DNA of 64,000 nt, taken from assembly GCF_019649055.1 (NCBI RefSeq), contig NW_026570263.1, positions 620,001 through 684,000 on the forward strand, in the 5' to 3' direction. Below, piece by piece: positions 1,765 to 61,179 of this stretch (positions are counted from its first letter, which is position 1; every line of letters starts with the position of its first letter). This DNA comes from Paramacrobiotus metropolitanus. Its lineage: Eukaryota; Tardigrada; Eutardigrada; Parachela; Macrobiotidae. The position numbers were made by a program, and so were the translations under genes. Below the pieces are notes generated by a model. The model was not told the DNA's origin, ran no database searches, and worked only from the letters and a program-made list of their open reading frames with translations.

Positions 1765-4700
1765 TTAGTGGCCACTGTAAGGCAGGCGCTTCTCGAGGTA
1801 GCAATCCAGGGCAAGTTGCGCCACTTTTGACAGTTTGTACACATCCACATTATCGCGCGTCCATTTCTCCGGTACGCCATTCTGCGCCGCACGTGGATCA
1901 GCACCGATCGACTCGTTTAAAACCTAGAAATACAGTAAAGAAATTACAGCACGGTACATACCGTAGGAGTACACTCGGATGGCTCCGTTTATCGCATTTA
2001 TTTGAATCACGTACGGTGCATGATTCAATAGGGAATTTTAGATTTCACATGGTTTAGGCCCCGTCCAAACCATGTGAAATCGCTGCCGTCTCCTCTCTCT
2101 GACCCTGCCAATTCAGTATTTACCCAGCTACAATGCCTGTTGACAGTGGATTCTTATCCAAATTAATTTGCTGCTAAACCTGCGGTCTGTATGGTCTGTA
2201 TGGTGCGTTTGCTAGAGAAACGAAAATTAAATCAGGAAAATGCCCGTACAGCGTCTGCAATCTACATACGTCAGTTGAGACCAGTCGCTTAATTTGAAAT
2301 GGAAGAAAAATAAAAATGTGTTTCCATCGTACGGCTCACCCACCGTCCATGATAAGCATGTCTAGTCTGCCCTTCATCGTCAGCCTCCGAAAAAATATTA
2401 GGGAATTTTAGATTTCACATGGTTTAGGCTCCTTCCACTAGAAACTACCGCGCCACATAAACAGTACGTTAGCAGACTGAAAATCGTTTAAAATGCTTGT
2501 ACGGATGCAGACTTGCAGTGACGTACAGCTGAAAAATAAATCGAATCGAGAGTGCCGAGAGCGTGACCAACCTGCTCTCGGGGAGGCGGTTAGAGCACAA
2601 AAAAAATCCACAGGCAGAATACGCTGGCTTATTGCTCAGCGATATGGCTGAGCCGTTGCACAGTTCCACGTCAGGCAGATAGTTTTTACGCGTCAGCCAA
2701 CGACGTTGGGTAACGGCGCCTTACGTCGCGAACGGACGTAAATCTAACCGTAACGCCAACTTCTATCCGAACGTCGAACTGCACGTAACTTGTTTTGTGA
2801 AATCTAAAATTCGCTAATATTACAAACACCAGCGGCACAAGTCTCACTCACGTCAAAGCCTTCAACTATACCGTAATTATCGAGTTTGTGGCTCTCCCGC
2901 AATAAGCCCGACCCGCTTCCCCAACCTGGTGTGAAAAATAAGCACGCACCCCGAAATTACGCTCCAGGGTGCCGTTAATAATTTAATACCTGCAAAATGG
3001 TAGACATAGCTGATCATCATCATATACCGTAAATTTCTTCATCACAGTTGCTGCGATTTAGGATAAAGTATAAACAGTAGACGGACATCAACATGATGTG
3101 GTGTTTGCTGGCAAACAGCTGTATTCGTATTAATATGATCCAAAATTTTACTCGCAAGAGTTGTTGTGTAGTTGCATATACCGGTAACTACTGCGTTCAG
3201 TTTTACTACCCTAGAACACCATGCGCAGGTGTTTGAAAAACAATGACCCTTCCATAAATATATACTGCTTGAAAAAATATTGCCACCCCCCTGAAATTGC
3301 ACCCCCTCCGCTCTGACCTTCGAAATATTTGCACCCCGGGGCCAGAAATTCGATAATTGCGGTAGCAGAAGTGTAACACAGTCATCTCTTGGCAAAACAC
3401 GGCTGTACAGATAGCTTATACCCACATACCCTGAGGAAGCCAGCGCATGCGTCATTACGCCACGAGCGGACCCTGACACAACCGTCCACCCATGCGGCCA
3501 ACCGCGGCAAATCCATCGCCTTGCGCAGCACCAGTGACCGTTCAAAAGCATCCCACACCTGCACCAATCGCTGCGCAGCCGCATCCCGCAGATAGAATCG
3601 CGCGTGGGCCACGTGGGCGCGCGTCTCCCGCAGCGACATGTCACACGCGCGCCACACCACCGCACCGCACGTCGCGGCCAACGCGGACACTTCCTTATTG
3701 GTCCGTTCCAAGTGAGCCTGCAGCGATAGCGTCACGTCGCGTTCGCTGAAATCGCACTGCGAGAAGACCAGCGTCTTCAGGCAGCGCTTCTGCAACGCTG
3801 TGCGCACGTGTGCCCAGGATGCCGACACGAGCGATTCCGAGGCATCCTCAATGACGACGGTGGTAGTGGCCGGCGTGGCGCACTTAAGTAGGCATCCAGC
3901 CAGCAGAAACTGCTCGGAACGGTAAACGTGTCGCTTGCGGAAGGAGATCCACAGATGCTGACCGGCCGTCGCATCGCCGCTGACGACTGCCTCCCACAGG
4001 CGGCAGACGCGGCGCAGACGGATCCGCTCGATGGTGTCCAGTGACTGGAAGACTTCTGCCAATATTTCACGGGGTAAGGGGATGCCACGCCCAGCTGGTC
4101 CCGGTTCGGCGAGCGGCGCTTGAACGGTCTTCGCCGGAGTAACGAAGCGACGGCCAATCCACTCGCCTGCCAGATCTTGGTCTACGCCACGGAACAATCC
4201 GCGCTCACTACACTCTTGAATAACGTGATCACACACGCCTTCCTGCAAATCAAAAGCCAACAACTAAAGAAACGCTACTAATGCAATCTCGAACCAAATT
4301 TCACTTCATTCAACATCAAAAACTTGACTGAGTCATCTACAAAAAAATCAAAACTCTGAACCAAAATGGCCGTGATACAGGGCAAAAAGTCATAAAAGTT
4401 TAAAGCAAGTCAAAATATAAAAATGCTACTACAGTCTGCACATCGATAGGGTTATGAACGGTTTTCGTGGTTTTTCCATGCTTAAATGTCGATCACTAAT
4501 TCGTGTCCATAAGGTTAGAAGGTACTGTAACGGCCATAGAGGTAGGAACTTACGAATTCAGCGGGTGTTAGAGGCTGCCCATCGTTCTGCTGGAAATACA
4601 ACAGCGTACTCTCGCTCTGCCGAACAACGGCAGTGCAGCAGGCGCTGCAGTCGCGGCTCAGCTGCTGCCACAGCAGCCCATCCGCCACTCTGCGCACCGA

Positions 4701-5237
4701 CCAGTAGCGGCCGGGCAGGCTGCATTCGCGGTTGACAAAATAGTGAGGAGGCAGGCGGCGCTGCTGCAGCTCATCCGACGACGGCGCAATGCGGATCTGT
4801 TGGACTGGGACGATCACTTTCATCGTCGCGTCGCCCAACCGCACCTCAACTAGCGCACAATCGATATCGCTGCAGTACGTTCCGACCGTACTGGAATCTT
4901 CGAGCAGAACGAGTTGGACGGGCCACCACGTCCACGCACGTTGTGGACCGACGCGTAACAAGGCCTGCAACGGATAGATCTCCGTCCACGCACGCTCCTT
5001 CCATGATTCGATGGCGACAGAAGGACAGCTGAAGAGGTTCCCGTACTCGACCAACTCGCAGTGACGTTGCGGACAGTCGAAGTCGATGAGCAGGCCCTGG
5101 TTGGCGTTGTCACCCGATGCCAGACCGATGACGACGCCGTGTTGCAGCGCTCCGTTGATCAGCACATCCACAGCGTTCCACTGGTACACGTCGTACACAA
5201 CGCCGCAGTAACGAGTGTTGCTGGCGAAGAGGTGCAT
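1765..5237 (-). CDS. F-box protein, tandem family member A (3 exons)
   Basis: Exons 5237-4554, 4242-3430 and 1923-1765 join in phase 0 at both junctions (donors GTAAGT and GTATGT, acceptors ttgcag and ttctag) and give 551 aa, exactly the length of paralogue B. Residues 1-228 form an unidentified domain with conserved QWNAVDVLINGALQHGVVIG, DFDCPQRHCELVEYGNLF and AWTWWPVQL. The F-box is at about residues 275-315 (LPREILAEVFQSL...VCRLWEAVV). A longer helical or leucine-rich-like region follows. The last exon ends the protein with a GADPRAAQ...KWT motif shared by B and D. F-box proteins recruit substrates to Skp1-CUL1 ligases. The F-box call is firm; the substrate is unknown. Intron 2 is long (1.5 kb) and holds a MITE. 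The start ATG is conserved in the other copies. Confidence 0.8.
2031..2081. repeat. Perfect 15-bp hairpin made of MITE end sequence
   Basis: gatttcacatggttt (2041-2055) is followed 11 bases later by its exact reverse complement at 2067-2081. The left half, from about 2031, repeats the 5' end of the MITE at 2394. It is either a solo fold-back remnant or two element ends joined head to head, within intron 2 of F-box gene A or at its edge. Confidence 0.6.
2394..2821. mobile_element. MITE, about 428 bp, with 26-bp terminal inverted repeats
   Basis: The first 26 bases (2394-2419, beginning aatattag and ending tttcaca) and the reverse complement of the last 26 (2796-2821) match at 25 positions; the single difference is G versus C at base 9. 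The interior holds no transposase frame. The element sits inside intron 2 of F-box gene A. Partial copies of the same end occur at 2031-2060. No long target-site duplication is evident; TA or a short A/T duplication is possible. The superfamily is not assigned. Confidence 0.7.
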
Positions 5238-5460
5238 GTTGCAGGGAGAAGTCTTCGTGAATAAGAATATGTGGTAGTGCCGAATTGTACCCGGCTTGAC
5301 TACTCCATAAACAATCAGTCAAGCGGAGGATCGAACGACGAACGGAGGACGAAATCAAAGTTAAATCACTTAAATGCTAACTACGAAATCACGAGCAGGC
5401 ACTTCCTGATTTGAAAAGTGACGAGTCAGAGCGCTGAATTTGACCAAAGTGTCAATAACC

Positions 5461-5510
5461 ACCTTTCAGCTACTGCTGCCGCCTGGGTGCGGGAGGCGCC
5501 GCTCAGCGCC
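5461..5510 (-). promoter_or_regulatory. F-box upstream conserved block, copy A
   Basis: This copy of the 50-bp block (core gcctgggtgcgggaggcgcc) lies about 230 bp upstream of the start codon of F-box gene A. Copies at similar distances precede genes C and D, but none was found before gene B. About 40 further bases (gcgctgaatttgacc...) are also shared with copy C. The constant distance from the ATG suggests promoter or 5' UTR sequence. The role is inferred, not shown. Confidence 0.4.
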
Positions 5511-5743
5511 TTATCGCCTACTACCGTGTTGGTGTGTAAATACTTATTTTGGTGTGTTTAGTTTCGGCAATCATCATCTCAGTAATGTGCGAATTGTTTG
5601 TCGTAGTTGGATCAGTTGTTTGATACGGTTTTATCGAGCTGTAAAGTGTAACAGAGGCAGCCATAAGTCGGCTGTTCGTGGTGATCTCAGCGAGGGAGGG
5701 CGGTCAGATGAAGATCCTGTCTGTTGAGGAAATTCCGAAAAAT

Positions 5744-5813
5744 GGCGATGGAGCGGAATCAAACCGCTGGCTACCGAGTGAGATCCACGTAGCACAGCCA
5801 CTGTGCCATCGCC
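5744..5813 (-). ncRNA. tRNA-like Pol III module
   Basis: On the minus strand this 70-nt segment starts GGCGATGG and ends CCATCGCC, a perfect 8-bp terminal stem. It contains a 5-bp T-arm-type stem around TTTGATT, a 6-bp GCACAG/CTGTGC hairpin in the D-arm position, an A-box-like TGGCACAGTGG, and a CTAC/GTAG stem in the middle. It is followed at once by TTTTT (5738-5742 on the plus strand), a Pol III stop. A/B-box spacing and arms do not fit a standard tRNA, so no anticodon is assigned. It may be a degenerate tRNA or a tRNA-derived SINE head. The other copy (12-66) is truncated. Confidence 0.35.
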
Positions 5814-6749
5814 GCTGTTGGCGAAGATCAAGATATTTGTGCTTGAGCTTGAGCCAACCAGGTAGGCGGCGGATGGGCGGCTGCTGTGTGTACAGAGGAT
5901 TCTCCTCTTACAAAAGGCAACTTTACTTAACAGATATCAGTCCAGTAGATGCTACAGCATAATCGTTATTGACAACAGCCATCCGATTAACAAAGTTACA
6001 GCTGCTGGTACATTACGCAACAGTTAAAATTTAACATTAAAAAAAACAACCGAATTCTGTCTTTTCTCGGTTTAAAAGGATACTAGCGCAACACCGCCGT
6101 AGCATTTCCCTTTACAACAGCAAGACCAAAACCGCGGTGATATGTGACGGTTGGAGAGTCATCGCAACACGCTTAATAAGTCGCTCAAATGGGCACAAAA
6201 TAACCGGAAACAGAGATTTATAAAGGTCAACGATAGCCGGATCAAAATCAGTCAGGTCGAGCCCGAGGTCTCGCATTGTCGGTTTGTTAAACTTTGGATC
6301 CTTAATTCTGAACGCCCAGACCACAGGAAGCGCAGAGGCGAAACCATTACTCTTCAGTTAATTTTAGCGTAACAACAGAAGCGGCGTTAGGTTGACATAT
6401 ACTCATTCGGTAAACTCATATGTGGCATCATAAATTCATTTTATAAATCCTGAAATCCGCCACGCAATACAGCTAGTAAGCAGACGAGATACTTATCTGC
6501 GCCCGAGGTTCAGCATCGAAATTCACCGCAGAAACATCCTGGGAATCCTGGCAGCCTCGGCCAGTTTAGATCAAATGTTGTCTGTGATTCGGTCGCCTGT
6601 TTCGGATCTCTGTTGATGCTGTGCGATGTTTCATTTTTGAAAAGTTGGCTTGATCACTTTGTACTTTTTTGGGAAAATTAATAATAAAGCGGCGGCTACT
6701 GGCTAGTAAGCACTTGCTAGTTAATACAATGAACAGGAACGAGATACTG
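5814..6749. other. Spacer between F-box genes A and B
   Basis: No gene is supported. The only longer frames (6112-6324 minus, 6151-6372 plus) overlap each other and show no recognisable domain. The 3' UTR of gene B should lie at its right end. Confidence 0.4.
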
Positions 6750-8819
6750 CTACAGTGGACGGCCGTTAAGCGGCCCTCGCCAGTAGTCCAAGGCACACTG
6801 CGCCACCTTCGCCAGCCGGAACACATCCAACTTGCCCAGATTATCCATCGTCCACTCCTGTTCGCCATGCTGCACCGGCGAACGTGGATCAGCACCGATG
6901 TACTGGTTAAGGGTCTAAGGAAACACAAAACATGAAATACTAGCACGGTATAGAATGAACTGCAAAAAAACTACGCATGAGATCACTTGGAATCATAATT
7001 CTCACCGGAGTTACGGCTACAACCGGATACCAGTGGTTTAAAATTAGACTACCCAGTATAAAAAAATCTCCTTTTGGTAACATACGACTGCAGTCTGGAC
7101 ACCTGCATACCCACCGATATGATCTTATTGCACGCTGCCACGTTTCGTCCGCTGACACAGCTCGCCACCCACTCGGCCAGCCGCGGCACATCGACCACCT
7201 CCCGGAGCACCAGTGACCTTTCACACACATCCCACAACTGTATCAGCCGTTGAGCCGGCGCATCACGCAAACAGAATTTCGCAAAGGTCACGTGCGCGCT
7301 GGTCTGCTTCAGCGCCATGTCGCACTCGCGCCACACCACCGCACGGCACGTCGCGGCCAACGCGGACAGCTGACCAGACAACTGGTCTAAGTTGTCGCGC
7401 AAACTGAAGTAGTAGAGAGGATTGCTGAAATCACACCGGGAGAAGACCAGCGTCTGGAGGCCGCGGTTGTGCAGGAACATGGCTAGCACTTCTCCTACGT
7501 GTCCCCAGGACGTCGACACGAGTGATTTCGAGGCATCCTCAATGACGATTGTTGCAGTGGCCGGTGTGGCACACTTGAGCAGGCATCCAGCCAGCAGGAA
7601 CCGCTCGGAACGGTAGACGTGTCGCTTCCGGAAGGAGATCCACAGATGCTGACCGGCCGTCGCATCCCCGCCGACGACGGCGTCCCACAGGCGGCAGACG
7701 CGGCGCAGGCGGACCCGCTGGATGGTGTCCAGTGACCGGAAGACGGCAACCACCAGTTCCCCGGGCAAGGGAATGCCACTTCCCGCTGCTCCCGGTTCTG
7801 GCGGAGCGTGTACGGTCTTCGCTCGAGTGACAAAGCGCCGGCCCATCCACTCGCCGGCCAGATCGAGGTCTCCTTTACCGGCGTCGCGATCACTGCGCGC
7901 TGTAGCGTCGTTACACGTGCGTTCCTGTTAACCAAAAGCCGTGCACGCACGATCACAGGAATATTCAACAGTGCCATATGGCATTAATCCCTAGCAAGAT
8001 ACTAGCTGAGACTACCTCACACCGCAGAGGCGGTAACGACCAGAAGCGTGACGTGCCGAAGCACCCTGAATGGCTCAAGCCCACGTTCCTCACATATCTA
8101 GTCAAAAGGTTTTCAAACGGGCTTGTAGTAGTACTTACGAATTGACCGGGTGTTATAGGCACACCATCGTGCCGCTGGAAATACGAGAAGATCCCGTCAC
8201 GAACGGCCACGCAGCACGCCCGCCAGTCGCGGCTGAACTGCTGCCACAACAGTCCGTTGGCCACCATGCACACCGGCCAGTATCCGCTAGTCAGACAGCA
8301 CTCCCGGATGACAAAATAGTCCGGCTGCAGACGGCGCTGCTGGAGATCGTCAGGCGACGGGACACAGCGGACCTGCTGGCAAGGGAGCACTTCTTTAATC
8401 AGCGTATTCCCCAGCTGCACCTCCACCACAACCCACCCCATTCCGATGCTGTACGTGCCGTCGTTATTGGCGTTCTCCGCCACGAGGCGCTGCACGGGCC
8501 ACCACGTCCACGCCCGTTGGGGACCGACGCGCAACAAGGCCTGCAACGGCCGAGTCGCCGCCCAGACATGTGCGGGTATCCGCTGCTGGTCCCAGGGTCC
8601 GTTGGCAACGTACGGGCAGTGGAAGAGGTTCCCGTACGCCATCAGCTCGCAGTGCCGCTGCGGACAGTCAAAGTCCACCAGCACGCCCTGCTGCGCGCCA
8701 GCCAGACCGATGACGACGCCGTGCTGCAGCGTCCCGTCGAGCAGCACGTCCACCGCATTCCACTGGTACACTTCGTACACCTCGCCACTATGGTAGGTGC
8801 TGCTGGCGAAGAAGTGCAT
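6750..8819 (-). CDS. F-box protein, tandem family member B (3 exons)
   Basis: Exons 8819-8139, 7924-7115 and 6914-6750 join in phase 0 and give 551 aa, the same length and exon plan as gene A. Exon 1 encodes the family's unidentified N-terminal domain (conserved QWNAVDVLLDGTLQHGVVIG and RAWTWWPVQ). Exon 2 holds the F-box (LPGELVVAVFRSL...VCRLWDAVV) and the C-terminal helical region. Exon 3 encodes a GADPRSPVQ...EWT tail. The start was set at the ATG conserved in A and D; an in-frame ATG six codons upstream exists. The protein probably acts as a substrate receptor of an SCF ligase. All three exons are open and splice sites are normal, so it looks functional. The conserved upstream block found at A, C and D is not present here. 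Confidence 0.8.
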
Positions 8820-9919
8820 GTTGCAGGGGGAGATCAAGCTACAGAATGCCCAGCACGTGGCAGATGGGGAATCGAAAAAAGGATTGGGGGACGAAGACTC
8901 AGACTGGCGACTGAAGATTCAAAAGCCAACAACTACGTACAGTACACACTACACACTATTTATACATAAATAAATAAGTAGGAGATTTTTACAGATTATA
9001 GCAGTCAGTCAGACGCAATGCACAGGACGAACACATTATACATTAACGGTAGCTGGACCTACCTGTACACGCAAAACAACAAATTAACAAAATTAATACT
9101 TCTGAAGTGCGAGTATATAAATAATCACGCAAAAGCCACTTAAAAAAAATATAAATAAATAATCACTTTTTCCACTCGTGCTCCTTAACCGTTTGTAAAT
9201 TTTGCAGAAGTATTTGCAGAAGAAATTTTGCAAAACATTATGGTTACCACTCCTGACACACCCTTGTGCTCAGTACACAACCTCTCGGCACTACCCTTAT
9301 CTGCGTGCACTACCTTGTATTTTTTAAAATTTTTTCACAGCTCAGTTATTTCTGGAACTGTCACTTTTTCATTAGCAGCAGCTGCATACTTCAAAGTATC
9401 ATCGGCTGTTACAAAATTGAATTTCCGTGAGAAAAAAATTCCAGGCGCCCTTGCGCTGGTTTTTCTTCGCACGATTTGGAGTTGGGACATTGCTTTTCTA
9501 GCTTGACATATCTGTAGTGCAGTCTTTGCTTTCCGAGCCTGACATACATGTAGTGCAAAAGTTTTAGAGAAAATACTCCAGATTACCATAAGTATAAATA
9601 ACAGTTATCAAAGATCTTGAAAGGAATTACCGCAATAAACGTTTGTAGCGGGAAGACGTTATAAATTGTAGCCGGTAGCCGGTAGCCGTAGCCGGTAGCC
9701 GGGAGCCGTTATAAATTTGAAGCCGGTAACATGGCCATTGTTAGGTGCGGGAGTGGGCTGGGTGTTTTTGTAATGTGGTTTGAAATTTGCAACTCAGAAG
9801 TTTTATGTTTGCTTTTCCATGATTGTGTTATCATATCCAGACCTACATTCAGTCGCTGTGACATTTTCTTCGCTGCAGCGTATACAGATTAGTACAGACA
9901 ATTATGTTCATCTTTGCAG
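8820..9919. other. Intergenic A/T-rich spacer with a short tandem repeat
   Basis: No gene is supported. A run of GTAGCCG units occurs at about 9668-9712 (gtagccggtagccggtagcc type, partly imperfect). The 5' exon or exons of the Ulp1-like gene starting at 9920 may lie here but were not recognised. Confidence 0.4.
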
Positions 9920-12900
9920 GAGACGTGGTGTACTTTTATGATAAAATCAAAGGAAACCGAATACAAGGTCAAAAGCGCCGGAAACTTAAGGGGCCAGCCA
10001 AAGTTATATCAGCAAGGGCAAGTGATGCTCAAATTCGATACGGTGCAACTCTACAGTTCATTCCCAACTGTGATGTCCGCATACCCATCAAGTTAAGTCG
10101 CCAGGAACAAAGCCTCCGTTCTGAAATAAGCGACAATGTAAGTATGGAGTTTAAGTGCGGTTATTAAGATAAGACCAGATATGTGACGTACCATGGGCTT
10201 ATCCTGCTTAGTAAGTACATCTGTTCATATTTTAACGAAACTTAATCTCAGTACACATTCAGGTTTTACGCAGGCGCTGCATGGTTGAAACCAGCAAGCC
10301 TATATATGATATATGGCAGACGTAATCTGTCTATGTATTATATATAGTATAGGATCCCACGTGTAACTGAAAGGTCAGAACGATTCCCTCTAACTGAATA
10401 GGTCAGAATGATTCTGTTTGCACTCAGCTTCGTCTTTTTATAGTCTTACGGCGGAAAGATGGAAAGCTAAAGGTCAGCCTGATCCTGGCTGCTCAATTGG
10501 TGATTCTCTCTGTCAGATTCCCTATGGAGTCGCAAAGAAACACCATTAAAACATTTCAATTCTTTTCCGCGTTTATTTTTAACCAATCCCAGCGCCTGCG
10601 TAAGGTTTCCGTAGGAAACGTTACGAAGAAGATCTTTCCTTGTAGCTTGAAAAATCCTCGAATGCTGGATCAGATATTGCCGAAATTCCATCAGCAGCAG
10701 ATGCAAAAATCTCTCCGAAGTCCTTGATTGATGGCGAAACCATCTGTTCGCGTAACGGTTTGATGATACTCCAAAGCGAGTTGGAACGGCTCCGCAATAA
10801 TGGCGACATCTCCCCTGATATTGTTAATGCATTTTCTGAGACCGTAATTCGGAATACCAAGAACGTATCAGGGATGCTGCATACTTTTACCCCTTTGGCC
10901 CCTAGTTTTCGCGGATTAGAAAAAGGCTCAAAGGTCTGTTGTCAGATTCACTTTAATGACGTGAATCACTTTTGCGTTTCCTCTTGGGACCAGAAAAATA
11001 ATGAAGTCCTGTTGTACGACTCCTTGGCTTTACCGCTATCAGAAGGCCTCAAGTATCAGTTATGGAAGTGCTATGGTAGGAACTGCCAGAATATAAAAGT
11101 TCGCTACATGCCGGTACAAAAGCAGTTGGATGGTGTCAGCTGTGGGTTTTTTGCAATGGTTTTTGCTGCCGATATCGCTGTTTTTCATAAGGATCCATGT
11201 ATGCGCCATTATGATCCCGCTGATCTTCGCCGATGGGTTGAGAACACTATAGCATCCGGAAAACTCGAATCGCCAGAAACGCATGACAACCTAAATGTCA
11301 AACGCATATCCAACCGTCTGCCCGTCATCCTAATCACACGCGAAGAAGCCGAAAACATTGGACTTCGAATAGAAACCGAAGTAAGACTTACAGTTTTAAG
11401 TAGTAGTAAAACGACAAATAATCCTACGATTGCTAAAACTGGCATACGGTATTGTGATTGATCTGGTAATAATAAATACTTGTGTCTTGTGCAGAAATTG
11501 TCGAATTTTCCCGAGAGGGATAAATTGCCTTACCTGCAGAAACTTTCTTCGAATGGCAAAGCAAAGGTAAATTAAATCTTTCCTGCAAAATACAAGACCA
11601 TTTTTCGTTGAGTGACATACCGACACCTGAAGGGCTAATTGTACTTAATGGCACTGGTTATGGTGAGTTATGGTCACTTTATCTATAAGAAAGGGTTCTC
11701 ATAATTGTAGTTTTCATAATGGTACTCATAAATAAATTGTATGGTTCTCATAATTAAACGAATATTCAATATTTTCGGTTAGAAAATATGCAATTTCCGC
11801 AAGCATTATTGTGTAAAGGCAGTAAGCACCCTTTTGAAACAAAGCAACATATAGGAACTAACGAATTAATTACTTTTTGTCTTTCTGTGTAGGTGCAAAA
11901 AAAGCTAACCGACATGTATCCCGCTTTTCGCCTTGCGAATTCACCTTGTAAAGGGAATCCTGTGCTGGTCAAGCGGCTAAATCAAGCTTATTTAAGAAAT
12001 CCGAAGAAACGAGTGCGTTTTTCCCGTGCGGCAACTGCTTCCGGCGCTCGCGATATAACTCAATCAGATCCTGCTGATCAGATCAAAATGACCTCTCTAA
12101 CCAGCTCTTTTCAGGCTGTGCGTCAGTTTTATCGGTTACCAAAAAGTATTTTTCCGCGAAACTTCTGCGCATTTGCCTGCCCGGATGTCAGCAACATTAC
12201 ACGGGCCACCTTCAGTGACGTCAGGAAAGAAACGCACAACACGAAGCCGTGGGTTCAGATTATTTTCGTCGAAGAAAGTCGCTTCGTCCTAGCTGTGTGC
12301 ACCAACTTGGGAAACGTCGATGTGTACGACAGTACAAATTGCAGGGAATTAACGGACCGTATGACCGAAAGCTACTGGCAGATGTTTGCGTCGGAGGAAG
12401 GACATCTCCAAATAAAGTTCCATGCGCTTTCATTTCCTGGAACTAAAACAGCGATTAGTTCAATTGCTCACGCTTGTGAGTACATATTCGGAGTGTCGGT
12501 AGCGAGTAACCGCCATGGAACTGAAAATGAGCTAGCCGACTGGTTCAAGCAACTCGTCGAATCCAAAAGGTTTTCCCTCCCGCCGTACGGGCTTGTAACG
12601 CGCACTGCAGCAACCAAGGCTGCAGCAGCTACACATGTTGAAGTTGTGGATCATGACCGTTTTAAAAAGGCTGTCAGCAACCTCTACAAGTCTGGTATGA
12701 ACGAAGCCCGCCAAAACGGGTTGGCGAACAACAAACCAGAATCCGAGATTACGCCCGCGGCCTTGAAAGACATGACACCGAAAGGAACCGGTGGTCAACG
12801 TTCCATGATCGTTCCTACTGTGCCCAGGCAATTGTCTTCTGCAACAGGACAGTCCGCAGCCAAAGTCACCAAGTCAATCTCTAATTCAGTGACTGCGGGG

Positions 12901-15562
12901 TCAAGTTTACTTTCCCAAGACTCAAGTACTACGGATTCATATGACCTTGTGAGCGTATTTTTGCGCTGCGCGGAGAAAAATCTTCCAAAGAATATTTGTG
13001 GATTCTTCTGTCCTGTTGTTGACGGTTTAGGCCGCCACATTTTTGAACGTATCAGAAAGAATGTTGAGGACAGAAAAATGTGGGCGCAGATCATCCGTTT
13101 TGATGACGACTTCTATGTTTTCTGTACATGTTCCAAACTGGGAGCCGTGGACATTTATGACTGCACGAAGCATCCGCTGACAGATGAAATGATTGAAAGA
13201 TACTGGGAGCTGTTTGGCACAGAAAACGGCGACTTAAAACTGAATTTTAAGAATGTGCCAGTTTCTCCAAAATATTCAGGGATGTACAGCATTTTATTCG
13301 CTGCTGAGTTTCTGGCGGCTTCCCCTGTTGCATCGCACCCGTACGCTCATAATAACGAACTTTTAGCATGGTTCAAGAAGTGCGCGTCATCAGGGGGTTT
13401 TAGCCTGCCCCCGTACGATGGCAAGGGAAATATGAAAATGGACCGTAGAAAACCAAGCACTGTGACAATCAGTAAAGAGAAGTTTGAATCTGCTAAAGCA
13501 AAGCTGTATGAAGAATCATTGGCTATTCAACAAGCCTTTCATGATCGGAGAAAGGTATGAAACGAAAATTATTTTACATATTCTAATATGATTTAAAGGT
13601 GAAATGTTATTTTTCTAAAAATGCTACTGTACTACTGTATATACACCAGTGTAAATTTAGAATTATCAAGACGATCTGTATTACAACAACCCCGTCCCCT
13701 CTAGAAAAAAAACTGTTTTGAATTTGAAAATATAAAACCGCAATTAGATTCAGCATGGTTGAAAACAGTGTCACTTGCGTTTTGATTCAGAAAAAATTGG
13801 CTCCTAACCCCTCTCCCAAATATTAGTACCGATGCTGATAGAACGATAATTCTCAAAGTGACCTTGAAAAAGTTTTCAAAGTGTGGTTTCATAGAGAAGA
13901 AACTCAATAAATTTAGTTCATGCTTAAAACTTGGATAATAAACTCAGAATTCTATTTTATCATAATTACCGGCCATGCGGCTCGTCTTTCCTTACAATCT
14001 TTTTAAAATCGTTAGGGGGTGTAAAGTGTGAACATGAACTGTCATACAAAATGCCTATTAAGGAAACCCGTTTTATTTAAATCACCGCCCTAACCCAGGG
14101 TGAATCAACACAGTCTCACACCCGAAAATCGAAAAGAATTGACACATCTTGCCATATGCAACAACATAAAAATTCAGTATTTGACGCATTCACCCTTCAG
14201 TATGCGAGTAGAGGTTGTACGGCATCTGTAGACGTTGTACGATAACGCGTACGGTATCCGGTATGCAAAAAAAGAAGCAAAATGTCCCGTTATTTTTTTT
14301 ATTAAGTATATTTTTGTTTAAGGAACTCGAGGCCCTGTTGGGAGAACGCTCGGATGCAGAAGATGAGATATCGGACCCGGAAATTACTCGAAGTTTCGAA
14401 AATCCAGTGCAAGCGGTCGGAATCCAAACGTCAAGACGCTTATCCTCAGTTCTGTCGGATATCGGATTGACCCATGAAGATTTAGCCAGCATACTTGCAC
14501 CAAAGCAGCCTCTGACAACTTTCATAATTTCTGGAGTATTAGAAATTTTGAAAGCTCAGTTTCCGCATATTGATGGTTTACACCCAATAGAAGTCTTGGA
14601 CGACAAAGGCGAATTGTCACCAACCCGGCGTTCTTTATTCTTTAAGGATCGCAAATTTCTGCAAATTGCGTTTGTTCACCGCAACCATTTCCTTGTGCTC
14701 CAAGGGATCGGCCAGCAAGCCGGAAGAAAGTCACCCTTTATTGTAAATGTTTTTGACAGCTTGGCGCTTGAAATGGGAAAAGCCAAAGACTCGGAACTTA
14801 TGAAAATAAGTGCAGCTCTGGCTAACACTACTGCTAAAGAAATCGAAATACGTCTGCAGCCCTGTGACCAACAGCCAAATCATATCGATTGTGGACTCTA
14901 CGCAGTGGCTTCTGCCACATCTGTTTGTTACGAACAGGACCTGAGCAAAATCGTGTTCGAAAAGGATGAGGTAACTATTCGGAACTTCGTTAATACACTC
15001 GCTTACCAAACACGAAACTTTTTTTGGAAAGCGTATCCAAACATTGCTTTTCTGGTTTATATAACTAACGCCTGTCATGCCAGATTGCCGGTACACAAAA
15101 ATGCCGAATTATTTTTTGAACGCTCCTTGTACTGTTTCCGAACTTGCAAAATTTTAGAGGCCTATTTCCAGTCAGCCGTTCTGCTGAGATAAAAATTTAG
15201 CATACAAGGTTTTTCAAATCAAAAACTGAACTAAGCGCCCCTAAAAGCATTTTATTTATTATGCTCTCTTCGCATAGATGCGTCAGCACCTTCACAACTG
15301 TGTCGTGAACAAGTTCATGGCGCCGTTCCCTTGCACCGAAGTCCAGACAAATTTATTGGAGGCATGCGACGATCCCCAACGATTTACCCATCGGTTTCCA
15401 ATCATATGCAGCTGCAGATTGCCTGCACCAACTTCCGCTAAGAAAGTGATCAAATGCCGATATAAAAATTGCCCGATCCAAACGTTTCACACTAGCTGCA
15501 TTCCAGAACGCCGTGCAAAAAAAGAAAAGTTTGGATGCAGCCTTTGCAGCCGCAAAATTTAA
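9920..15562 (+). CDS. Multi-Ulp1 (C48-like) protein with integrase-C-like domain and PHD-like finger, 5' incomplete
   Basis: Exons 9920-10137, 10646-11380, 11495-11566, 11893-13554, 14323-14970 and 15278-15562 join in phase 0 throughout. Exon 1 (GDVVYFYD...KGPAKVI) resembles the SH3-like C-terminal domain of transposon integrases. Exon 2 encodes a Ulp1/C48-type cysteine protease with His (NHFCV), Asp (YDSL), Gln and Cys (QLDGVSCGFF). Exon 4 carries two diverged repeats that keep the Asp strand (VDVYDST, VDIYDCT) but lack the His and Cys. Exon 5 is another Ulp1-like unit (RNHFLVL, FDSLAL, HIDCGLYA) that continues into MRQHL...FPC of exon 6. The end is a Cys-rich CxC...CxxC finger with the spacing of a PHD. 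It is probably a transposon-derived gene or old element. Exon 1 starts at an acceptor with one base owed by a missing upstream exon. Function is unknown; deSUMOylation-type activity is inference only. Confidence 0.65.
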
Positions 15563-16092
15563 GGAAGTAGTGGAAAGTTCTTCTTCCGATACTTTTTTTC
15601 AGTCGTGCAACATGTATGACCTTCTAAGATCAGCTCAGATGGAAAATAGAAATTCGTGTGTGTCCTCTGTGGGTGCAGAAACAGTACAGTACTTGGAACT
15701 GTTTATTTGTCAACAGCACTAACTATGAGCAGTGTATTACTTAGCGAATTTGAAAAAAAACAACACTGTAAACGGATGCAATGGTACAATTCTCAAAGGA
15801 TAGCAGATAATAAACGCAGCCTCCACAATGGAATGAAATAAAATTTTGCAGATAAAAGATAACATCTAAGTGCTTTGAAAACAATTAATTACGGTTTACA
15901 ACGATCAGTATGGATGCCAGTTGCCCGGTGCCAGTAAAAACAGTCAGCACAGGCAATTGTAGCGTTCATTTGTAAAAAATTATGCACTGCATTAATAAAG
16001 AGAAAACGCTTCTCTAATTTCGGTGTCGGTACAGTCCCTAGGAAGCTGCATCTGATGCTGCAGCCCGGTTGGGCTAACGCTACGCAGAATGT
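15563..16092. other. Intergenic, no gene seen
   Basis: This is the 3' flank of the Ulp1-like gene. AATAAA-like strings occur near 15809 and 15837. Nothing else can be supported. Confidence 0.4.
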
Positions 16093-16200
16093 CAAATTTC
16101 GCTGTTATTGTGCCGGTTCGGCTGATATATTGGAGTTCCTATAGACAATGCATAGCGTTGGGTCGGCAGAAATGTGGGTGCAGTTCGGCAAATATATTGG
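16093..16200. repeat. Interspersed repeat, copy 1
   Basis: This stretch aligns with 16698-16800 at roughly 80-85% by eye. Each copy contains the motif ttcggctgatatattgg (16117-16133 here). In this copy a second version of the motif closes the unit at 16184-16200. No coding capacity is seen. It is probably a small non-autonomous element. Confidence 0.55.
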
Positions 16201-16697
16201 TCGTTGTATGTAAAATATTTTTTAAATTTTGGGTGCCCAAATTTTCCATGACTTCGCCAATTTAACTGCAAATATGTTCATGTTGCCTATGTGTTGAAAA
16301 ACTTAAAGTACTTATGGCGTTTCAATAACCTTTGTCATTTCGTTTACAGTTTCATCAGTGCATATAAAGGCATACCAAACTGGTTTGTACAGTGACTGTT
16401 GCGGAACTAAATGCTTGATAGTTTTTAAGTTCTGTAAAGTTGTCTAAGGGAAATGTACATTGTACAGCATTCACAGTTTGTATGCGTTAGAAGAATAGTT
16501 ATTTGGAAAAATATAAATATACTCATCAATTAATTTTGTTTTGCGATGATGTCCTCTCCTGCAAGGATTAGACACGGCGCAAGAGAAAGCGCGGGCTTCT
16601 CTGCCTGTTTAGTGGCGGTACAATATGCTTAGTCGGCTGTATGTGTATATGACGCAGCCCGGGCGTGCATCTGCCAGCTCGCACTCAGCAAAAGTAT

Positions 16698-16860
16698 CAA
16701 ATTTCACTGTTGCGCCGGTTCGGCTGATATATTGGAGATCCCATAGACAATGCATAGGTCGGGTCGGCAGAATTGTGGGAGCAGTTCGGCAGATTTATGG
16801 GAGAAAATCCACTTTCCTGCCGGGCTCGCCAACAGGAAACAGGCCAATATATCTGCCGGC
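16698..16860. repeat. Interspersed repeat, copy 2, with inverted end
   Basis: This is the second copy of the 16093-16200 repeat. It carries ttcggctgatatattgg at 16719-16735, and an inverted version (ccaatatatctgccgg) near 16843-16858 would allow a fold-back of about 140 bp. It looks like a degenerate MITE or fold-back element. Confidence 0.5.
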
Positions 16861-17045
16861 TACAAGCGCCTACTACCAATTTTGTTTTTCCGCAAAATTT
16901 TCTCCATGGTTTTGGCAAGTTTACTGGTTTGTGAAGTGGTTTTTCCGAAAATGGACTAAGTAGGAGTGGCTACTGGCTAGTACCCGGTACACGCCTTTTA
17001 ACTGAGAAGCCAAAATAAAAAGAAAACCGACACCAAAAAACACAA

Positions 17046-17293: not shown

Positions 17294-17650
17294 CAGAACT
17301 GTTAGCCACACGCTAAATATGGGACACACGAATAGTGACATTATTCCTCCGGTAAATGGCAAAAGAGAAACGCACAAAAAACAAACGAATGGTAAAAGTT
17401 CCTAAGAGGCAATAAATAGCCATCACCATAACCCACGAAGAGCCATTGCGGGGCTGTACCACTTATCAGTCGAGGCAACGCCTCCTTTTGAGCTAAGACA
17501 GAAAAATTTGAACATAGGATACATAATGGGATACATTCAGGTTACAATTGCGCTGATCTTCGCAAAAAATTTTCTGAAAGTGCGTGCGTCGCATGACGAC
17601 TATTTAGTATTTACACAATCTTAGTAAACCCATTACGACTAAGGACTTAC
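17294..17650. other. Intergenic, no gene seen
   Basis: I searched this stretch for the F-box exons 2 and 3 that should follow the exon-1 copy at 17651-18333 and found neither. Nothing else can be supported. Confidence 0.4.
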
Positions 17651-18333
17651 AAAATCATCGGGTGCCATAGGGAGTCCATCGTTCCGTTGGAAATACAACA
17701 ATAACCTACTTTGTCGAACGGCAATGCAGCCAGCACTACAGTCGCGGCTCAACTGCTGCCACAGCAGCCCATCGGCCACATTGGGTACCGACCAGTAGCG
17801 CCTGGGCAGCCTGCATTCGCGGCTGATGAAGTAGCCAGGAGCCAGGCGGCACTGCTGCAGTTCATCCGCCGACGGTACACTGCGGATCTGCTGGACGGGG
17901 ACGATCTCTTTTATCAGCGCATCGCCCAACTGCACCTCAACCAGTACACACTCCATATCGCTGCAGTACGATCCGGCCGTATTGGAATGTCCTTCCTGGC
18001 AGAACGAGTTGGATCGTCCACGCACGAGCTGGACCGACGCGTAACAAGGCTTGCAGCGGATGGGTCTCCGCCCAGGCCCGGTCCTTCCATGCGTCCCACG
18101 ATGCGACGGCGACCGACGGACAGCTGAAGAGGTTCCCGTACTCCACCAACTCACAGTGACGCTGCGGACAGTCAAAGTCCACCAGCAGACCCTGCTGCGC
18201 GTCGTCCGCTGACGCGAGACCGATGACGACGCCGTGTTGCAGCGTCCCGTTGATCAACACATCCATGCCGTTCCACTGGCACACTTCATACACAGTGCCA
18301 CTGTAATGAGTGGCGAATGGCGAAGAGGTGCAT
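17651..18333 (-). pseudogene. F-box family exon-1 pseudogene, member C
   Basis: The sequence matches exon 1 of genes A and B from the ATG (18333) to the donor (TTT|GTAAGT at 17651). It has at least two frame breaks. One comes within the first dozen codons, so the ATG frame stops after about 15 residues. Another comes near 18000, where the WTWWPV stretch is shortened to WTIQL. Family motifs such as NGTLQHGVVIG and DFDCPQRHCELVEYGNLF remain readable. No F-box exon lies downstream before 15.6 kb. It is a decayed partial copy. Confidence 0.75.
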
Positions 18334-18520
18334 GTTGCAGGGAGAAGTCTTCGTAAATAAGGATATGTGATAGACTGATAGCGCCGAATTGTACCCGGCT
18401 TGGCTACCCAATAAACAATCAATCAATCAACCGGCGGATCGAACCAAGAACGGATGATGAAATTACAATTAAATGTTTGTAAAATCACAAGCGCTGAATT
18501 TGACCGAAGTGTCAATGACG

Positions 18521-18570
18521 ACCTTTCAACTACTGTTGCCCCTGGGTGCGAGAGGCGCCGCTCAGCGCCT
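18521..18570 (-). repeat. F-box upstream conserved block, copy C
   Basis: A copy of the 50-bp block (core cctgggtgcgagaggcgccgctcagcgcc), about 190 bp upstream of the ATG of pseudogene C. The sequence between the block and the ATG (taaacaatca, gcgctgaatttgacc) is also shared with copy A, so the duplicated unit includes the whole 5' region. Confidence 0.5.
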
Positions 18571-18747
18571 AGCCACCTACTACCCTGTTCGTAACTACGG
18601 TACTTACTTATTTTTGTTGTGTTTGGCTGCTTGATTTGTTTTTCCGAAAACTGACTCAAAAACCGGCAAGAACACCACAGGTCCACAACGAGGGACAAGC
18701 AGAGACTAAGCGGATCGGTTGCAGTGAAGAGTGTCTGCTCGCAGAAT

Positions 18748-18833
18748 CTATGACACGTTAACCACCAAGCGTTCATCGTCCGCAAAATTGCGGAACACCG
18801 GCATGTTCTCATGTCTTCGTTCAGCTCCATTAA
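18748..18833 (-). pseudogene. Relic of the SORL1 terminal exon, copy C
   Basis: On the minus strand this reads [18 protein letters not shown] and a stop, against [18 protein letters not shown] and a stop in the real SorLA terminal exon (23177-23256). Bases after the stop also match. Two extra bases upstream of the Met break the frame from the preceding ELNED codons, and the intron acceptor is replaced. It is a dead copy carried with the F-box segmental duplication, 4.4 kb from its source. Confidence 0.75.
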
Positions 18834-19171
18834 ACTCAAGTGGCAATAAAACAGTCAAAATCCACAATCCATGATGCCTCAGCCATGCTTGTAGCCAGAT
18901 GTCAGCACTGCATCCATTTTCTCCTTTTATTACAGGAGCAGGAGATCCACCTCTGAGTACGGTGCGAACTGTTTGCCTGTTTGGTTCTGTTGTTGTTCTG
19001 ATACGGTTTTAATCGAGCCATATAAGTAAGTTGAGTCTCGCACTTTAATACTTGTCCAGTAGATACATAGCAAATTTGCGAAATATAACGCGGAATAATC
19101 GATCAGCCAAACTACGTACTGTACAATTGGCGTTTTACTTCATTGCACAAGCATTTTCAATACACAGTAAA

Positions 19172-19753
19172 TTAGAAAACCAAAAACAGTTCATCAAGAT
19201 TGCGACTGCACTCAACTGTACCAAGAACAAAAGCAGCAGTGCCCCGTTGTATTTCTAAACTGCAACGCTGCAACAAAAACTGTTTCGTACGGCTTTCTCC
19301 AGTCTGCTCCCGAATACGTTTGGTCAAATCCGAAATAAAACCACTGGTACTTGGTCCACAGCGTCCCATAGTTTCGAAAGCAAAAGGCTGGACAATGTAT
19401 CGATCCCTCAACTTCTCATATTTTCCCAGTTTTCGAATTTCAGCGGCTTCCGCAGCGGCGCCAGGGTTGTCAGAAGTCTGGCCGATATATGTTGCCGCTC
19501 GCGTGTCTGCTACAGTGACATCCCACACTAAAGGTTTTCCATATTGCCAAGGATACATAGTCATGCCATCTGGTCGTTTTCCAGTTTCTCTATCAAGTCC
19601 GGGAGGTTCCAAGATAGCCGATATTTTAGCAGATCCGCAAGCCCGCTGAACTATGTTGTAAAGCGCGCTGTGGCGCCGCATCCGTCCTGCACTTTTCTTA
19701 CAGCAAAGGCCATGATGACCGTATCTGTCAACCATTTCGCCACAACTATACAA
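19172..19753 (-). pseudogene. Non-LTR retroelement C-terminal fragment, copy 2
   Basis: This open frame of 193 codons begins CGEMVDRYGHHGLCC...RRHSALYNIV, a Cys/His cluster. It continues with ILEPPGLDRE, KRPDGMTMYPW and LVWDVTVADT, then a C-terminal block shared with 850-1143. The spaced acidic residues (RPDG, WDVTVAD) after a Cys/His cluster resemble the restriction-like endonuclease region of R2-type non-LTR elements. That assignment is by pattern only. No reverse transcriptase domain adjoins it, so it is a 5'-truncated fragment, as expected for non-LTR insertions. Confidence 0.55.
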
Positions 19754-20061
19754 TTTAGCACTGTGATACCGTTATTTCTCATTTGTCTGCAGTCAGGCCG
19801 TATTTCTTCAGCCAAGAAAAACACTATTACTGTAATACGGTACCATAGGTAGTGTGCTGGAATCAGAAAAAGCACCACAGTTGCACAAAAATCATGTTGA
19901 ATTTTTAAGTATCGCCGTAGAGAAAGACAACCGGCTCAATAACGATTTTGGTTGTTTTTTCAGTGTTGAAACTCGTATCGTATCGTTGAAACTCGTTTTA
20001 ATTAGTGGCCAGCGCAAGCATTGTTGTATGTGCATTGGCTTTTGCTGAATAAATCATTCTT

Positions 20062-22222
20062 TCACATGCTATCGCCAATTCGGCCGTACAAGGCAACTTG
20101 CGCCAACTTTGTCAGCCGGAACACATTCAAGTTGGCCAAATTCTCCGTCGTCCATTTTTGATGAGCACTGCACTGTGCCGTTCGTGGATCAGCACCCATA
20201 AACTCGTTCAAAACCTAAACACCAAGAAAAACAGCGGCTTTCAGGCAAAAGCAGAATGCGTTGCATAATGCGGCTTTAGCCTGCAGGCTCATACCGATAT
20301 TATTCCTTCGCACTTGTTAGTATCCTTTGTGCGGACACAACACGCCACCCACTCAGCGAGTCTCGGCAGATCCACCAGCTCTCTCTCCACTAGTGACCTT
20401 TCATGGACATCCCACAACTGTAGCAGCCGTTGCGCGGCTGCATCCCGCAGACAGAACTTGGCAAAGGCCACGAGGGCGCTGGTCTCCGGCAGCGACCACT
20501 CGCAATCGCGCCACACCACCACACGGCAGCTGGCTTCCAGCTCAGACCACCGGTGATTGATCAACCTCATGTAATGGCGCAGCTCGTAATCGTAATCACT
20601 GAAATCACACCGGGAGAAGACCAGCGTCTTAATGCGGCGCTGCTGCAGCAAGATCAGGACCACTTCGTACACGCCCCGCGACCAAGAACATAACTCGGAT
20701 GAATCCTCCAGGATGATGGTGTCCGTGGCGGATATGACGCACTTGAGCATACATGCCGCCAGCAGGAACTGCTCGGCCTCCTCACTGCGGTACCTGTGGA
20801 AGGGATGTCGGCAGGAGATCCACAGGTGCTTGCCGATCGCATTCGAATCCAGCATCGCCTCCCACAGGCGGCAGACGCGCCGCTTGCGGACCCGCTCGAT
20901 GTTGTCCAGTGACTGGAAGATCTCCGCCAATAGTTCGCGTGCCAAGGGAAGGCCGCGGCCCGTTCGATGCTCGTCGGTGGACCGAGCTTTGACTCTTCTC
21001 AAAGAGGGAGCGAAACGATGGCCGGTCGATTCTCCTTCTTCTGGGCGTCCATCGCTCTCGCCGGGCGCCACAGACGCGTGATGTTCGATGTCAAAACTTG
21101 GTTCCTTCGAATTTCAAAAGGTATCAGTTATTTTAAAACGCTCGCCCGCTTGATTAGTTATAGGCTATAGCAGTTATTTACAGTACTAACACCACAATCA
21201 CTAATTTTACTCTAAGTTTGCAGACTGCAGTTGTTGCTAATTGAGAAAAAAAATGGCACTTATTGTGATGTCGCAGTTGTGTTTGTTAAAGGAGATTCAT
21301 TGTTAAGAAACTGTTTATCAGAACAGGCGAGAGTTATTCCACTTGCTTTTGTTTCAACATTTAAGTCTGGAGATTACGCGTGATAATGCTATGGCCTATG
21401 AGTGTATGTGCACAATCCCTTCTCATGTTAATTGGGACATATAAAAATTCTTGCTTCAGTGGTGCTCGTTGGTGTGTATATCGAAAAGAAAAATAACAAC
21501 TTATGTATCACTTCGAAGAGAAACATTCTGCAACCTGTAACAACCAGCTTACCAATCTGTCAAGGGAAATAGCAAGCCCATCGCGGCGCTGAAAGTACGC
21601 AAAGCTGTCAGTACGTGCAGCAGTGCAGCAGGCTTGAAACTCGCGGCTGAGCTCCTGCCACAGCAGTCGCGTCGCCTCCGGGGGCGCCGTCCAGTATCCC
21701 TTGGGTAGACGGCGTTCTCGGCTGACGAAATACTCCGGTCCCAGACGGCGCTGCTGCAGATCTTCAGGGGAAGGTACCTCGCGGATCTGACGCAGCGGAA
21801 TCACGCGCATCGCCCCACTGCACCTCCACCACACCACAATCAAAATCGCTGCCTGACTCTTTGCACGCCTTGGCAATCTCTGGGAGGGCTAATTTGACCG
21901 GACACCATGTCCAGGCGCGACCATGACCGACGCGCAGCAGCGCTTGCAGAGGATGGCTCCGCGCCCACGCAGCCTCCTGCCACGCGTCCCAGGACGCGGG
22001 GAGCAGGTACGGGTCGCTGAAGATGCTGCCGTACGCGCCGAATTCGCCCTGCCGCTGTGGACAGTCGAAGTCGATGAGTAGGCCCTGGTTGGCGTTGTCG
22101 CCAGATGCCAGGCCGATGACGACGCCGCGCTGCAGCGCTCCGTTGATCAGCACATCCACCGCGTTCCACTGGTGCATATCGTACACAACGGCGCAGCGAT
22201 AACTGCCGGCGAATAGATGCAT
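20062..22222 (-). pseudogene. F-box family member D, frameshifted exon 1
   Basis: Exons 22222-21553, 21104-20295 and 20214-20062 match the plan of A and B. Exon 2 is 810 nt as in B and fully open, with the F-box LARELLAEIFQSL...VCRLWEAML. Exon 3 is open and ends in the family tail (GADPRTAQ...KWT). Exon 1 is 670 nt, one base out of phase. The frame breaks near 21810 after VVEVQWGDA, where A reads GDATMKVIVPVQQIR and the other frame here reads RVIPLRQIREVPSPEDLQQRRL. Either it is a recent pseudogene or there is a sequence error. It is the family member closest to SORL1 and may represent the source locus of the duplications. Confidence 0.7.
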
Positions 22223-22451
22223 GTTTCAAGAAAATATTAAACCTTCAGCTCCTGACAAGTGACGGATCGAACAGCTGAAGAGCGAAGATGTACAGTTCGT
22301 CCAGGAGCACGCAAAAAGCTAGAACAAAAACACTGTCAAATAACTCAAACTGACAGTGTCAAATTGTCAATGCTCTCCTGGTTTCAGTACTTTGTTTTAT
22401 TGAATTTTGCTTTACTTTGTCGTGCAGGACTGCAGGGTGCTTTAGTTTTAC

Positions 22452-44597: not shown

Positions 44598-45203
44598 AAA
44601 ATGACAAATTTAGCGAAGGACTTGGACGGTTTTCTCCAGGAGACTGGCAGTGGCAGTCAATAAATCAATAAACTGCACTCATAATCATGATATCACCGTC
44701 GACATCAGACCAGCACGAAAAACGATGGCTGTGTATTGACGGAGTGTGTTGACTGTACAGTCTTTAGACTGATCGGTGTACCATGCCACGAGTCTGAGCT
44801 AACCAGCTTACCATAGTGTGCAAGCACCGATTGCATTTTACTGTAATGTTTCGTATTATGTATTAATGTAGTTGCGACTGGTTAAATTGTGATTTTTGCT
44901 AAAATCAAGGTTGCTACGTTTTATTCAAAAATACTACAGATAGAATATTCTGCATTAGGTGGAGACTGTAGGGACGTCATAGGGAATCGTCGCTTTGTTT
45001 TATTGTTGTTTGCATCCATCGTACATATTGCAGGTCTTCAGTCTGAATAAATTGTAATTAGATAACAGTTATGTGACCTTTGTTAAAAGACACTGCGATA
45101 AAGGCGTCATGGCACACTGTCGGCTTTCATGATACAACAAGATGACGGCAATCCACAGAAAAAAAGTTGCCCGGTTAATGGATGACGCGGGAGCGGGGCG
45201 TAG
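44598..45203. other. Spacer between chromobox and troponin T genes
   Basis: About 600 bp of A/T-rich DNA. It contains the promoter of the chromobox gene and the 3' UTR of troponin T, both on the minus strand. No other feature is seen. Confidence 0.4.

Positions 45204-57780: not shown

Positions 57781-61179
<3,399 letters not shown>

Follow-up and report, generated by a model that had tools for sequence, protein, structure and literature searches.

A gene with four protease-like units in a tardigrade contig

The region examined here is a stretch of 64,000 nucleotides from the tardigrade Paramacrobiotus metropolitanus (NCBI RefSeq assembly GCF_019649055.1, contig NW_026570263.1, positions 620,001 to 684,000 of the forward strand), referred to below as the window and labelled C43:620001-684000 within an assembly of 169.8 Mb and 533 contigs (C-numbers are contig labels). 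It contains a predicted spliced gene with four units that resemble Ulp1-type cysteine proteases of peptidase family C48, two of which lack the catalytic cysteine. Read from the sequence, the anatomy of this gene and its origin in a transposon leave little room for doubt, and there is a strong probability that it represents a 5′-truncated Ginger1-like DNA transposon of the cut-and-paste kind, whose transposase carries all four units.

The gene consists of six exons with GT-AG borders, all joined in phase 0, which together give 1205 codons and a stop; the longest frame reaches 555 aa, against a maximum of 185 aa across 200 mononucleotide shuffles of the region. The exons and the units within them are as follows.

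9922..10137, plus strand: exon 1, integrase C-terminal module, retrovirus-like and GPY/F-like (here GPA); starts at a splice acceptor and is the 5′-most surviving exon
10646..11380, plus strand: exon 2, first of the two catalytic-looking Ulp1-like (C48) units; His, Asp and Cys all intact
11495..11566, plus strand: exon 3, linker exon of 24 aa, defined by splice borders and phase only
11893..13554, plus strand: exon 4, tandem pair of non-catalytic C48-like units
12091..12600, plus strand: pseudo-protease unit u1, Asp kept, no Cys-Gly, His replaced by Arg
12925..13428, plus strand: pseudo-protease unit u2, Asp kept, no Cys-Gly, His replaced by Phe
14323..14970, plus strand: exon 5, second catalytic-looking C48 unit, with the triad here and PF02902 matches in relatives
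15278..15562, plus strand: exon 6, probably completes the C48 unit of exon 5 before a C4HC3 PHD-type finger and the stop

This structure agrees with the original prediction for the locus, which had joined the same six exons in phase 0, placed complete catalytic sets in exons 2 and 5 and described two repeats in exon 4 that keep the aspartate and have lost the histidine and cysteine. The two ends of the protein, predicted to be integrase-C-like and PHD-like, also stand. Homologues of exon 1 (47-68% amino acid identity) lie downstream of integrase exons in relatives, and the GP of the module is invariant in all six aligned sequences. Exon 6 starts with MRQHL..C..PFP, which resembles the end of the exon-5 C48 unit, and the finger follows; although exon 6 alone has no PHD match in Pfam, it aligns with the PHD exon of a sister family described below (PF00628 match, E 1.2e-6) and has the C4HC3 ligand set. 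One correction concerns the 5′ end, where the gene is incomplete: exon 1 starts at a splice acceptor, and a search of the window did not find the integrase exons that relatives have upstream. An in-frame ATG precedes exon 1 at 9904, which makes a truncated product from the window copy conceivable.

Catalytic-looking and non-catalytic C48 units

The histidine, aspartate and cysteine are invariant in the four aligned copies of exon 2 and in the eight aligned copies of exon 5. The exon-2 alignment and the corresponding ratios of nonsynonymous to synonymous substitution rates (dN/dS) omit the copies on C58 and at 177 kb on C19, in which exon 2 was split across frames in tblastn. When profiles built from the two exons are compared, their triads fall in register (P 4.8e-10). 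All eight exon-5 copies match the Pfam Peptidase_C48 profile (PF02902) at E <= 1, with a best value of 1e-4, and the exon-5 profile retrieves yeast Ulp1 among solved structures at E 0.0049; single-sequence searches of solved structures gave nothing significant (exon 5 against yeast Ulp1, E 0.84). Among the exon-2 copies, one of four matches Pfam C48 (E 0.013), and a genome-wide Pfam C48 scan returned nine matches at E <= 0.001, none of them at the window locus. Exons 2 and 5 thus have the full C48 His-Asp-Gln-Cys set, with weak to moderate profile support, and the exon-4 units lack it. A profile search of the exons had been suggested together with the prediction; it revealed C48 similarity, albeit weak, and yielded no PHD match for exon 6. 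Among viral contigs, 172 pattern matches were obtained, and for none of them was a relationship to the exon-5 profile confirmed.

The two units of exon 4 are similar to each other (38% identity, E 3e-38), and u2 can be linked to exon 2 by profile comparison (P 2.3e-6). Across six copies of the gene, which provide 11 units (the C11 copy has one, and exon 4 of the C19 177 kb copy was entered from about its 76th residue onward), the Cys-Gly pair is absent and the aspartate kept in every unit, and the histidine is replaced in 10 of 11, the exception being the first unit of C58. In a tree of the units the separation of u1 from u2 is weak (support 65/60 and 80/79), and the single C11 unit groups among u1.

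Pairwise dN/dS among C78, C19 (443 kb) and C58 is 0.06-0.18 for u1 and 0.09-0.15 for u2, that is 0.06-0.18 for the two units together, and 0.18-0.43 for the head, linker and tail of exon 4 in the same three copies. The corresponding figures are 0.21 for exon 2, from a single pair, and 0.12-0.16 for exon 5 in pairs with enough changes and finite dS, the latter a range that omits the few-change pairs C78/C19 177 kb (0.31), C11/C116 (0.38) and window/C210 (1.47). Exon 5 of the window against C326 gives 0.12 at a dS of 2.18, most other comparisons with the window copy being saturated at synonymous sites; the exon-6 values of the C19 443 kb copy (0.43-0.46) look unreliable, with a suspected frame problem, and are discounted. 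Because of the low dN/dS of u1 and u2, the dead units look as if they were held by selection during the divergence of the family. The comparison with relatives that the prediction called for thus gave low ratios, consistent with its suggestion that the dead units could be binding modules; the inner units are probably constrained pseudo-proteases serving in that way.

Copies elsewhere in the genome

Protein searches of the genome show that the exon order 1-2-4-5-6 recurs at five other loci, on C78, C19 (at 177 kb and 443 kb), C58 and C11, and that partial copies are present on C116, C326 and C210. Compared with the window gene, exons 2 and 5 are about 50-62% identical and exon 4 is 37-41% identical. 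Splice borders were located in each copy by extrapolation from aligned residues, in a comparison that covered exons 1, 2, 4, 5 and 6. The exon-1 acceptor agrees in 6/6 copies. Agreement among donors is 6/6 for exon 2, 5/6 for exon 4 and 8/8 for exon 5, and among acceptors 4/6 for exon 4, 6/8 for exon 5 and 6/8 for exon 6; the misses correspond to indels, far extrapolations or an altered site (exon 6 of C11). As the exon order recurs at five loci and most borders fall at the same place and in the same phase, the exons are better explained as one gene than as neighbouring open reading frames (ORFs), and the array is very probably encoded as one polypeptide.

Integrase, termini and target duplications

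The relatives supply what the window copy lacks. In the C58 copy the upstream exons encode an H2C2 finger (PF17921, E 2.8e-11) and an integrase core (PF00665, E 8.2e-14), preceded by a YPYY-like segment (HYPGL...RYRLKNEKLYYV) that was read by eye. A genome search with the integrase stretch, in which the best 150 of 1090 candidates were scored, has as its five best listed matches (62-100% identity over 108-194 residues) sequences on C58, C19 (452 kb), C78, C11 and C116, all of them upstream of homologues of the gene. The integrase core is therefore found upstream in four of the five loci with the full exon order and in one partial copy (C116). The window and the C19 177 kb copy are not among the listed matches, and the latter lacks that segment relative to C78.

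The termini of the family are TGTAGCCGGCAG...CTGCCGGCTACA. Exact 6-bp target duplications flank all four gene-family elements for which both ends are available, namely:

C19 element at 177 kb: 13,728 bp, duplication GGCGCA
C78 element: 17,478 bp including a nested insertion, duplication ACCGAT
C58 element: 13,608 bp, duplication GGCGCC
C210 element, a deletion derivative: 3,566 bp, duplication CGCGCC

For the remaining copies, the left end was not reached at C19 443 kb, and C11 and C116 each have one end that is not recognisable. The terminal inverted repeat (TIR) of the C210 copy is about 770 bp long, and the longest inverted end matches of the other elements are 386 bp (C58), 200 bp (C19, 177 kb) and 213 bp (C78), interrupted by tandem repeats. 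In the C58 element, apart from the transposase exons, no frame longer than 160 aa was found, with shuffles reaching 217 aa.

A further 14 short elements share the TIR type of the window; they were recognised as opposite-strand TIR pairs chosen by eye and form an incomplete set (contigs C1, C22, C47, C65, C73, C79, C94, C95, C110, C114, C161, C345 and C365). Nine of the 14 have exact 6-bp duplications and two more match at five of six bases. As a control, mismatched pairs of left and right ends, taken from the 13 short elements with both ends, agree in 5/156 cases, which is above chance since the targets share a consensus. CG occupies positions 3-4 in 14/14 exact duplications (13 from family and short elements, and one from the sister element described below); in the window as a whole, CpG has a frequency of 0.067.

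The window copy as a truncated relic

Downstream of the gene the window retains one end of the element. The features around the two ends are listed here; the search for the dispersed repeats (query 8970-10640, covering both) gave 54 matches in all, with the best 40 of 128 candidates scored.

16092..16864, plus strand: right terminal inverted repeat, ending in CTGCCGGCTACA, with flank AGCGCC; 97-99% identical to both C210 TIRs
9667..9709, plus strand: GTAGCCG tandem repeat, starting with TGTAGCCGGTAG, of which 11/12 bases match the family terminus
9262..9645, no strand assigned: dispersed repeat upstream of exon 1, near the truncation
10261..10631, no strand assigned: dispersed repeat within intron 1

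The right TIR has 69 matches genome-wide (best 40 of 82 candidates scored), and positions 14416-16870 are 99.55% identical over 2,455 bp to the C210 copy, which is itself flanked by a target duplication. On the left side, an inverted-repeat search found no TIR of the window copy, and AGCGCC is absent from 8900-9921; the repeat at 9667..9709 is a possible remnant of the left end, the six bases that precede it differing from AGCGCC. The flanking inverted repeats that had been proposed as a check are thus present in several copies of the family, with only the right one kept in the window. Four query pieces from the integrase exons gave no tblastn match in the window better than E 0.07. With its right terminus intact, no left TIR or integrase exons found, and near identity to C210, the window copy is a 5′-truncated member of a recently mobile subfamily; without an integrase core it cannot move itself. 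The five integrase-bearing copies are all absent among the listed matches of the window TIR, and therefore no autonomous partner with this TIR type was found.

Relation to known elements

Ginger1 elements are described, in the excerpted text of PMC2836005, as 2.6-7 kb long, with TGTNR termini, TIRs of about 40-270 bp and 4-bp duplications of CCGG or CCGT; their hallmarks are YPYY, H2C2, a DDE core, GPY/F and a C-terminal Ulp1 or OTU domain, with PHD in one family. The type with both Ulp1 and PHD (e.g. Ginger1-9_HM) shares with the present family H2C2, the DDE core and the C-terminal Ulp1 and PHD, as well as introns, termini (TGTAG..CTACA fits TGTNR) and CG-containing targets; a possible YPYY-like motif, read by eye, and a candidate GP(Y/F)-type module would be further points in common. 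The differences lie in the duplications, which are 6-bp NNCGNN rather than 4-bp CCGG/CCGT, the central CG being common to both; in the TIR of about 770 bp (C210) and the element of about 13.6 kb (C58), both outside the ranges quoted above; in GPA in place of GPY/F in 4/4 aligned copies; and in the presence of four C48-like units, two without the catalytic cysteine. Table 1 of PMC2836005 gives Ulp1 or OTU per family and no number of units, and the excerpted text of that paper holds no mention of several Ulp1 units per transposase. Likewise, the terms Ulp, C48, OTU, TSD and PHD are absent from PMC12863088, which concerns a crustacean gene derived from Ginger1. Judging by title, only PMC2836005 in the open-licence literature on Ginger and Ulp1 concerns such elements; the comparison covers open-licence papers, with Repbase outside it, and a catalogued relative of the family may exist. 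The domains being Ginger1-like, but duplication length, TIR length and size departing from the published description, the family is best filed as a Ginger1-like variant and not as a plain member.

The genome also contains a sister family, at C245:55278-64163 and on C419, which encodes an integrase, a PHD finger (PF00628, 1.2e-6, above the Pfam cut-off) and a C48 domain of which one unit was found; in C419 the C48 and the integrase core, at E 9.7e-4 and 1.1e-4, do not reach that cut-off. On C245 the element measures 8,886 bp, with TIRs of 956 bp (96%) made of tandem repeats, a TGTGA terminus and the duplication TACGAG. The two families have in common a possible YPYY-like motif (by eye), integrase, C48, PHD and a 6-bp CG-centred duplication; they differ in the number of C48 units and in GPL/GPF rather than GPA, and BLASTP gave no match between the exon-1 module and that of the sister family. 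Given a sister family with one C48 found, the four-unit array probably arose within a single lineage, provided that one C48 unit is the ancestral layout.

C48 modules seem not to be confined to these families. On the minus strand of another locus (C35:980000-986500), a long frame that by eye looks like a Helitron-type Rep/helicase has a C48-like unit at its end. It shares with the window gene the C48 unit and a tail of the form MRKHL..C..LLPFP, and differs in having a helicase-type frame in place of the integrase and a single C48 unit. Another transposon class in the same genome therefore seems to carry a C48 module.

Alternative explanations

Polinton/Maverick elements also combine an integrase with a clan-CE-type protease, and the pairing, the long TIRs, the cysteine protease and the 6-bp duplications could place the present family with them or with GingerRoot instead of Ginger1. 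According to PMC10045372, Ginger1 makes 4-bp duplications, Polinton and GingerRoot make 6-bp ones, and GingerRoot termini are mostly TA..TA, occasionally TG..CA, so the duplications here are as reported for those groups and the termini could be accommodated. The usual TA..TA nevertheless contrasts with the TGT..ACA ends of the present family, which also set it apart from Polinton; the H2C2 finger is present here and reported as lacking in Polinton (excerpts of PMC2836005), and the C58 element has no additional frame of the size of a polymerase, ATPase or capsid protein, judged by frame length only. With Ulp1 and PHD as in Ginger1, a Polinton-like or GingerRoot-like identity is improbable. The original prediction left two further options, a domesticated multi-protease or a fused run of element ORFs. 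Under domestication, the host would have retained the truncated, immobile copy as a multi-protease free of integrase, for which one can cite the 1205 codons without a stop, the failure to find an integrase core or left TIR, and the ATG at 9904 that could start translation just before exon 1. The right TIR is intact, however, and the near identity to the duplication-flanked C210 copy implies recent movement of the subfamily; as the subfamily moved recently, open frames need no host selection. There is also no sign of constraint after truncation, the differences between the window and C210 (about three nonsynonymous and one synonymous in exon 5, none in exon 6) being too few to judge. The transposon terminus and this identity speak against domestication, which we regard as highly improbable.

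Of the other option, the derivation from an element is upheld, and the fusion of separate ORFs is not. The exons are long enough that each could pass for an ORF, an ATG opens exon 6, and two splice borders are unmatched between copies. Against this, most GT-AG borders keep their place and phase in as many as five other full loci, the C48 unit of exon 5 seems to be completed by exon 6, and the C58 element has no further long frame; separate neighbouring ORFs are thus very unlikely, and the homology check proposed with the prediction came out for one gene through shared exon order and borders. For the inner units, it could be argued that they are decaying remnants without function, given that the catalytic cysteine is gone in 11/11 units and the histidine in 10/11, and that C11 has a single unit and C116, a partial copy, only part of one. 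The Cys-Gly loss is identical in all 11 aligned units, though, and their dN/dS does not exceed that of the remainder of exon 4, whereas decay would give about 1, which makes functionless decay hardly probable.

Several observations do count against the four-unit Ginger1-like transposase preferred here. The window sequences themselves are poor C48 matches, exon 5 reaching E 0.022 in Pfam, below the cut-off, and exon 2 having no C48 match there. Profiles of exons 4 and 5 do not match, so exon 4 is linked to C48 via exon 2 only. The dN/dS values come from three copies per unit, with some dS saturated (0.06 for u1 at a dS of 3.64), and the unit and linker ranges meet at 0.18. As regards the gene model, the exon-1 donor and the exon-2 acceptor, which lie in variable sequence, are the borders unmatched between copies, exon 2 is split across frames in the C58 and C19 177 kb copies, and the integrase matches at C78, C11 and C116 are each flagged with one in-frame stop. 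Finally, five of the 14 short elements have no exact duplication, and a nested insertion of about 3.3 kb in C78, located between the homologues of exons 4 and 5, has the family termini with no matching duplication.

A possible role for the protease array

In the proposed Ginger1-like transposon, a full element such as that on C58 (13.6 kb) has inverted repeats and, judging by its frames, a single spliced gene for the transposase, whose product would be ordered as YPYY-like segment, H2C2, DDE core, GP(Y/F)-like module, first C48 unit, two pseudo-C48 units, second C48 unit and PHD finger. The integrase part would join the element ends to CpG-containing target DNA, and the PHD finger may read chromatin. 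The two catalytic-looking C48 units may remove SUMO, or a tag like it, either from the transposase itself or from chromatin and repair proteins at the donor or target site; the two dead units would act as docking sites for the tag or for whatever carries it. The window copy, if transcribed, would yield an integrase-less protease array. A role in deSUMOylation with docking pseudo-units is put forward tentatively, as one possibility that we do not favour over the sum of others. A more specific version, an anti-silencing device in which SUMO or SUMO chains carried by host silencing complexes are docked by the dead units and stripped by the flanking active ones, with the PHD finger as an anchor on chromatin, appears unlikely; if it were true, the element would counter SUMO-dependent silencing.

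The Ulp1 and OTU domains of such transposases have been proposed to act in transposition via ubiquitin- or SUMO-controlled repair (Bao et al. 2010, PMC2836005), a role that is only suggested in the excerpted text, which leaves open why some eukaryotic transposases carry Ulp1. The present family may be informative here: with multiplied units, two of them lacking the cysteine and yet constrained-looking, the dead units should act otherwise than by cleavage, and within the same genome the sister family, for which one C48 unit was found, offers a natural control. In addition, 6-bp CpG-centred duplications would broaden the reported range for Ginger1-like elements.

Other features of the window

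Repeated gene-like frames lie on both sides of the element, on the minus strand (3042-8918 and 17639-22237). The frame at 4515-5318 has no Pfam match; the frame at 7049-7927 is F-box-like (PF12937, 2.4e-6). A search against Rfam at the gathering threshold gave no match. Further along, all on the minus strand, 30506-33821 holds LDL-receptor repeat and Sortilin-Vps10 frames, presumably as in a SORL1-like receptor, and 59397-60743 encodes C2H2 fingers with a homeodomain-like stretch below the cut-off, which we take to be possibly a ZEB-type factor. Between these, a chromodomain protein frame is found at 43476-44609 (PF00385, E 6.2e-15).

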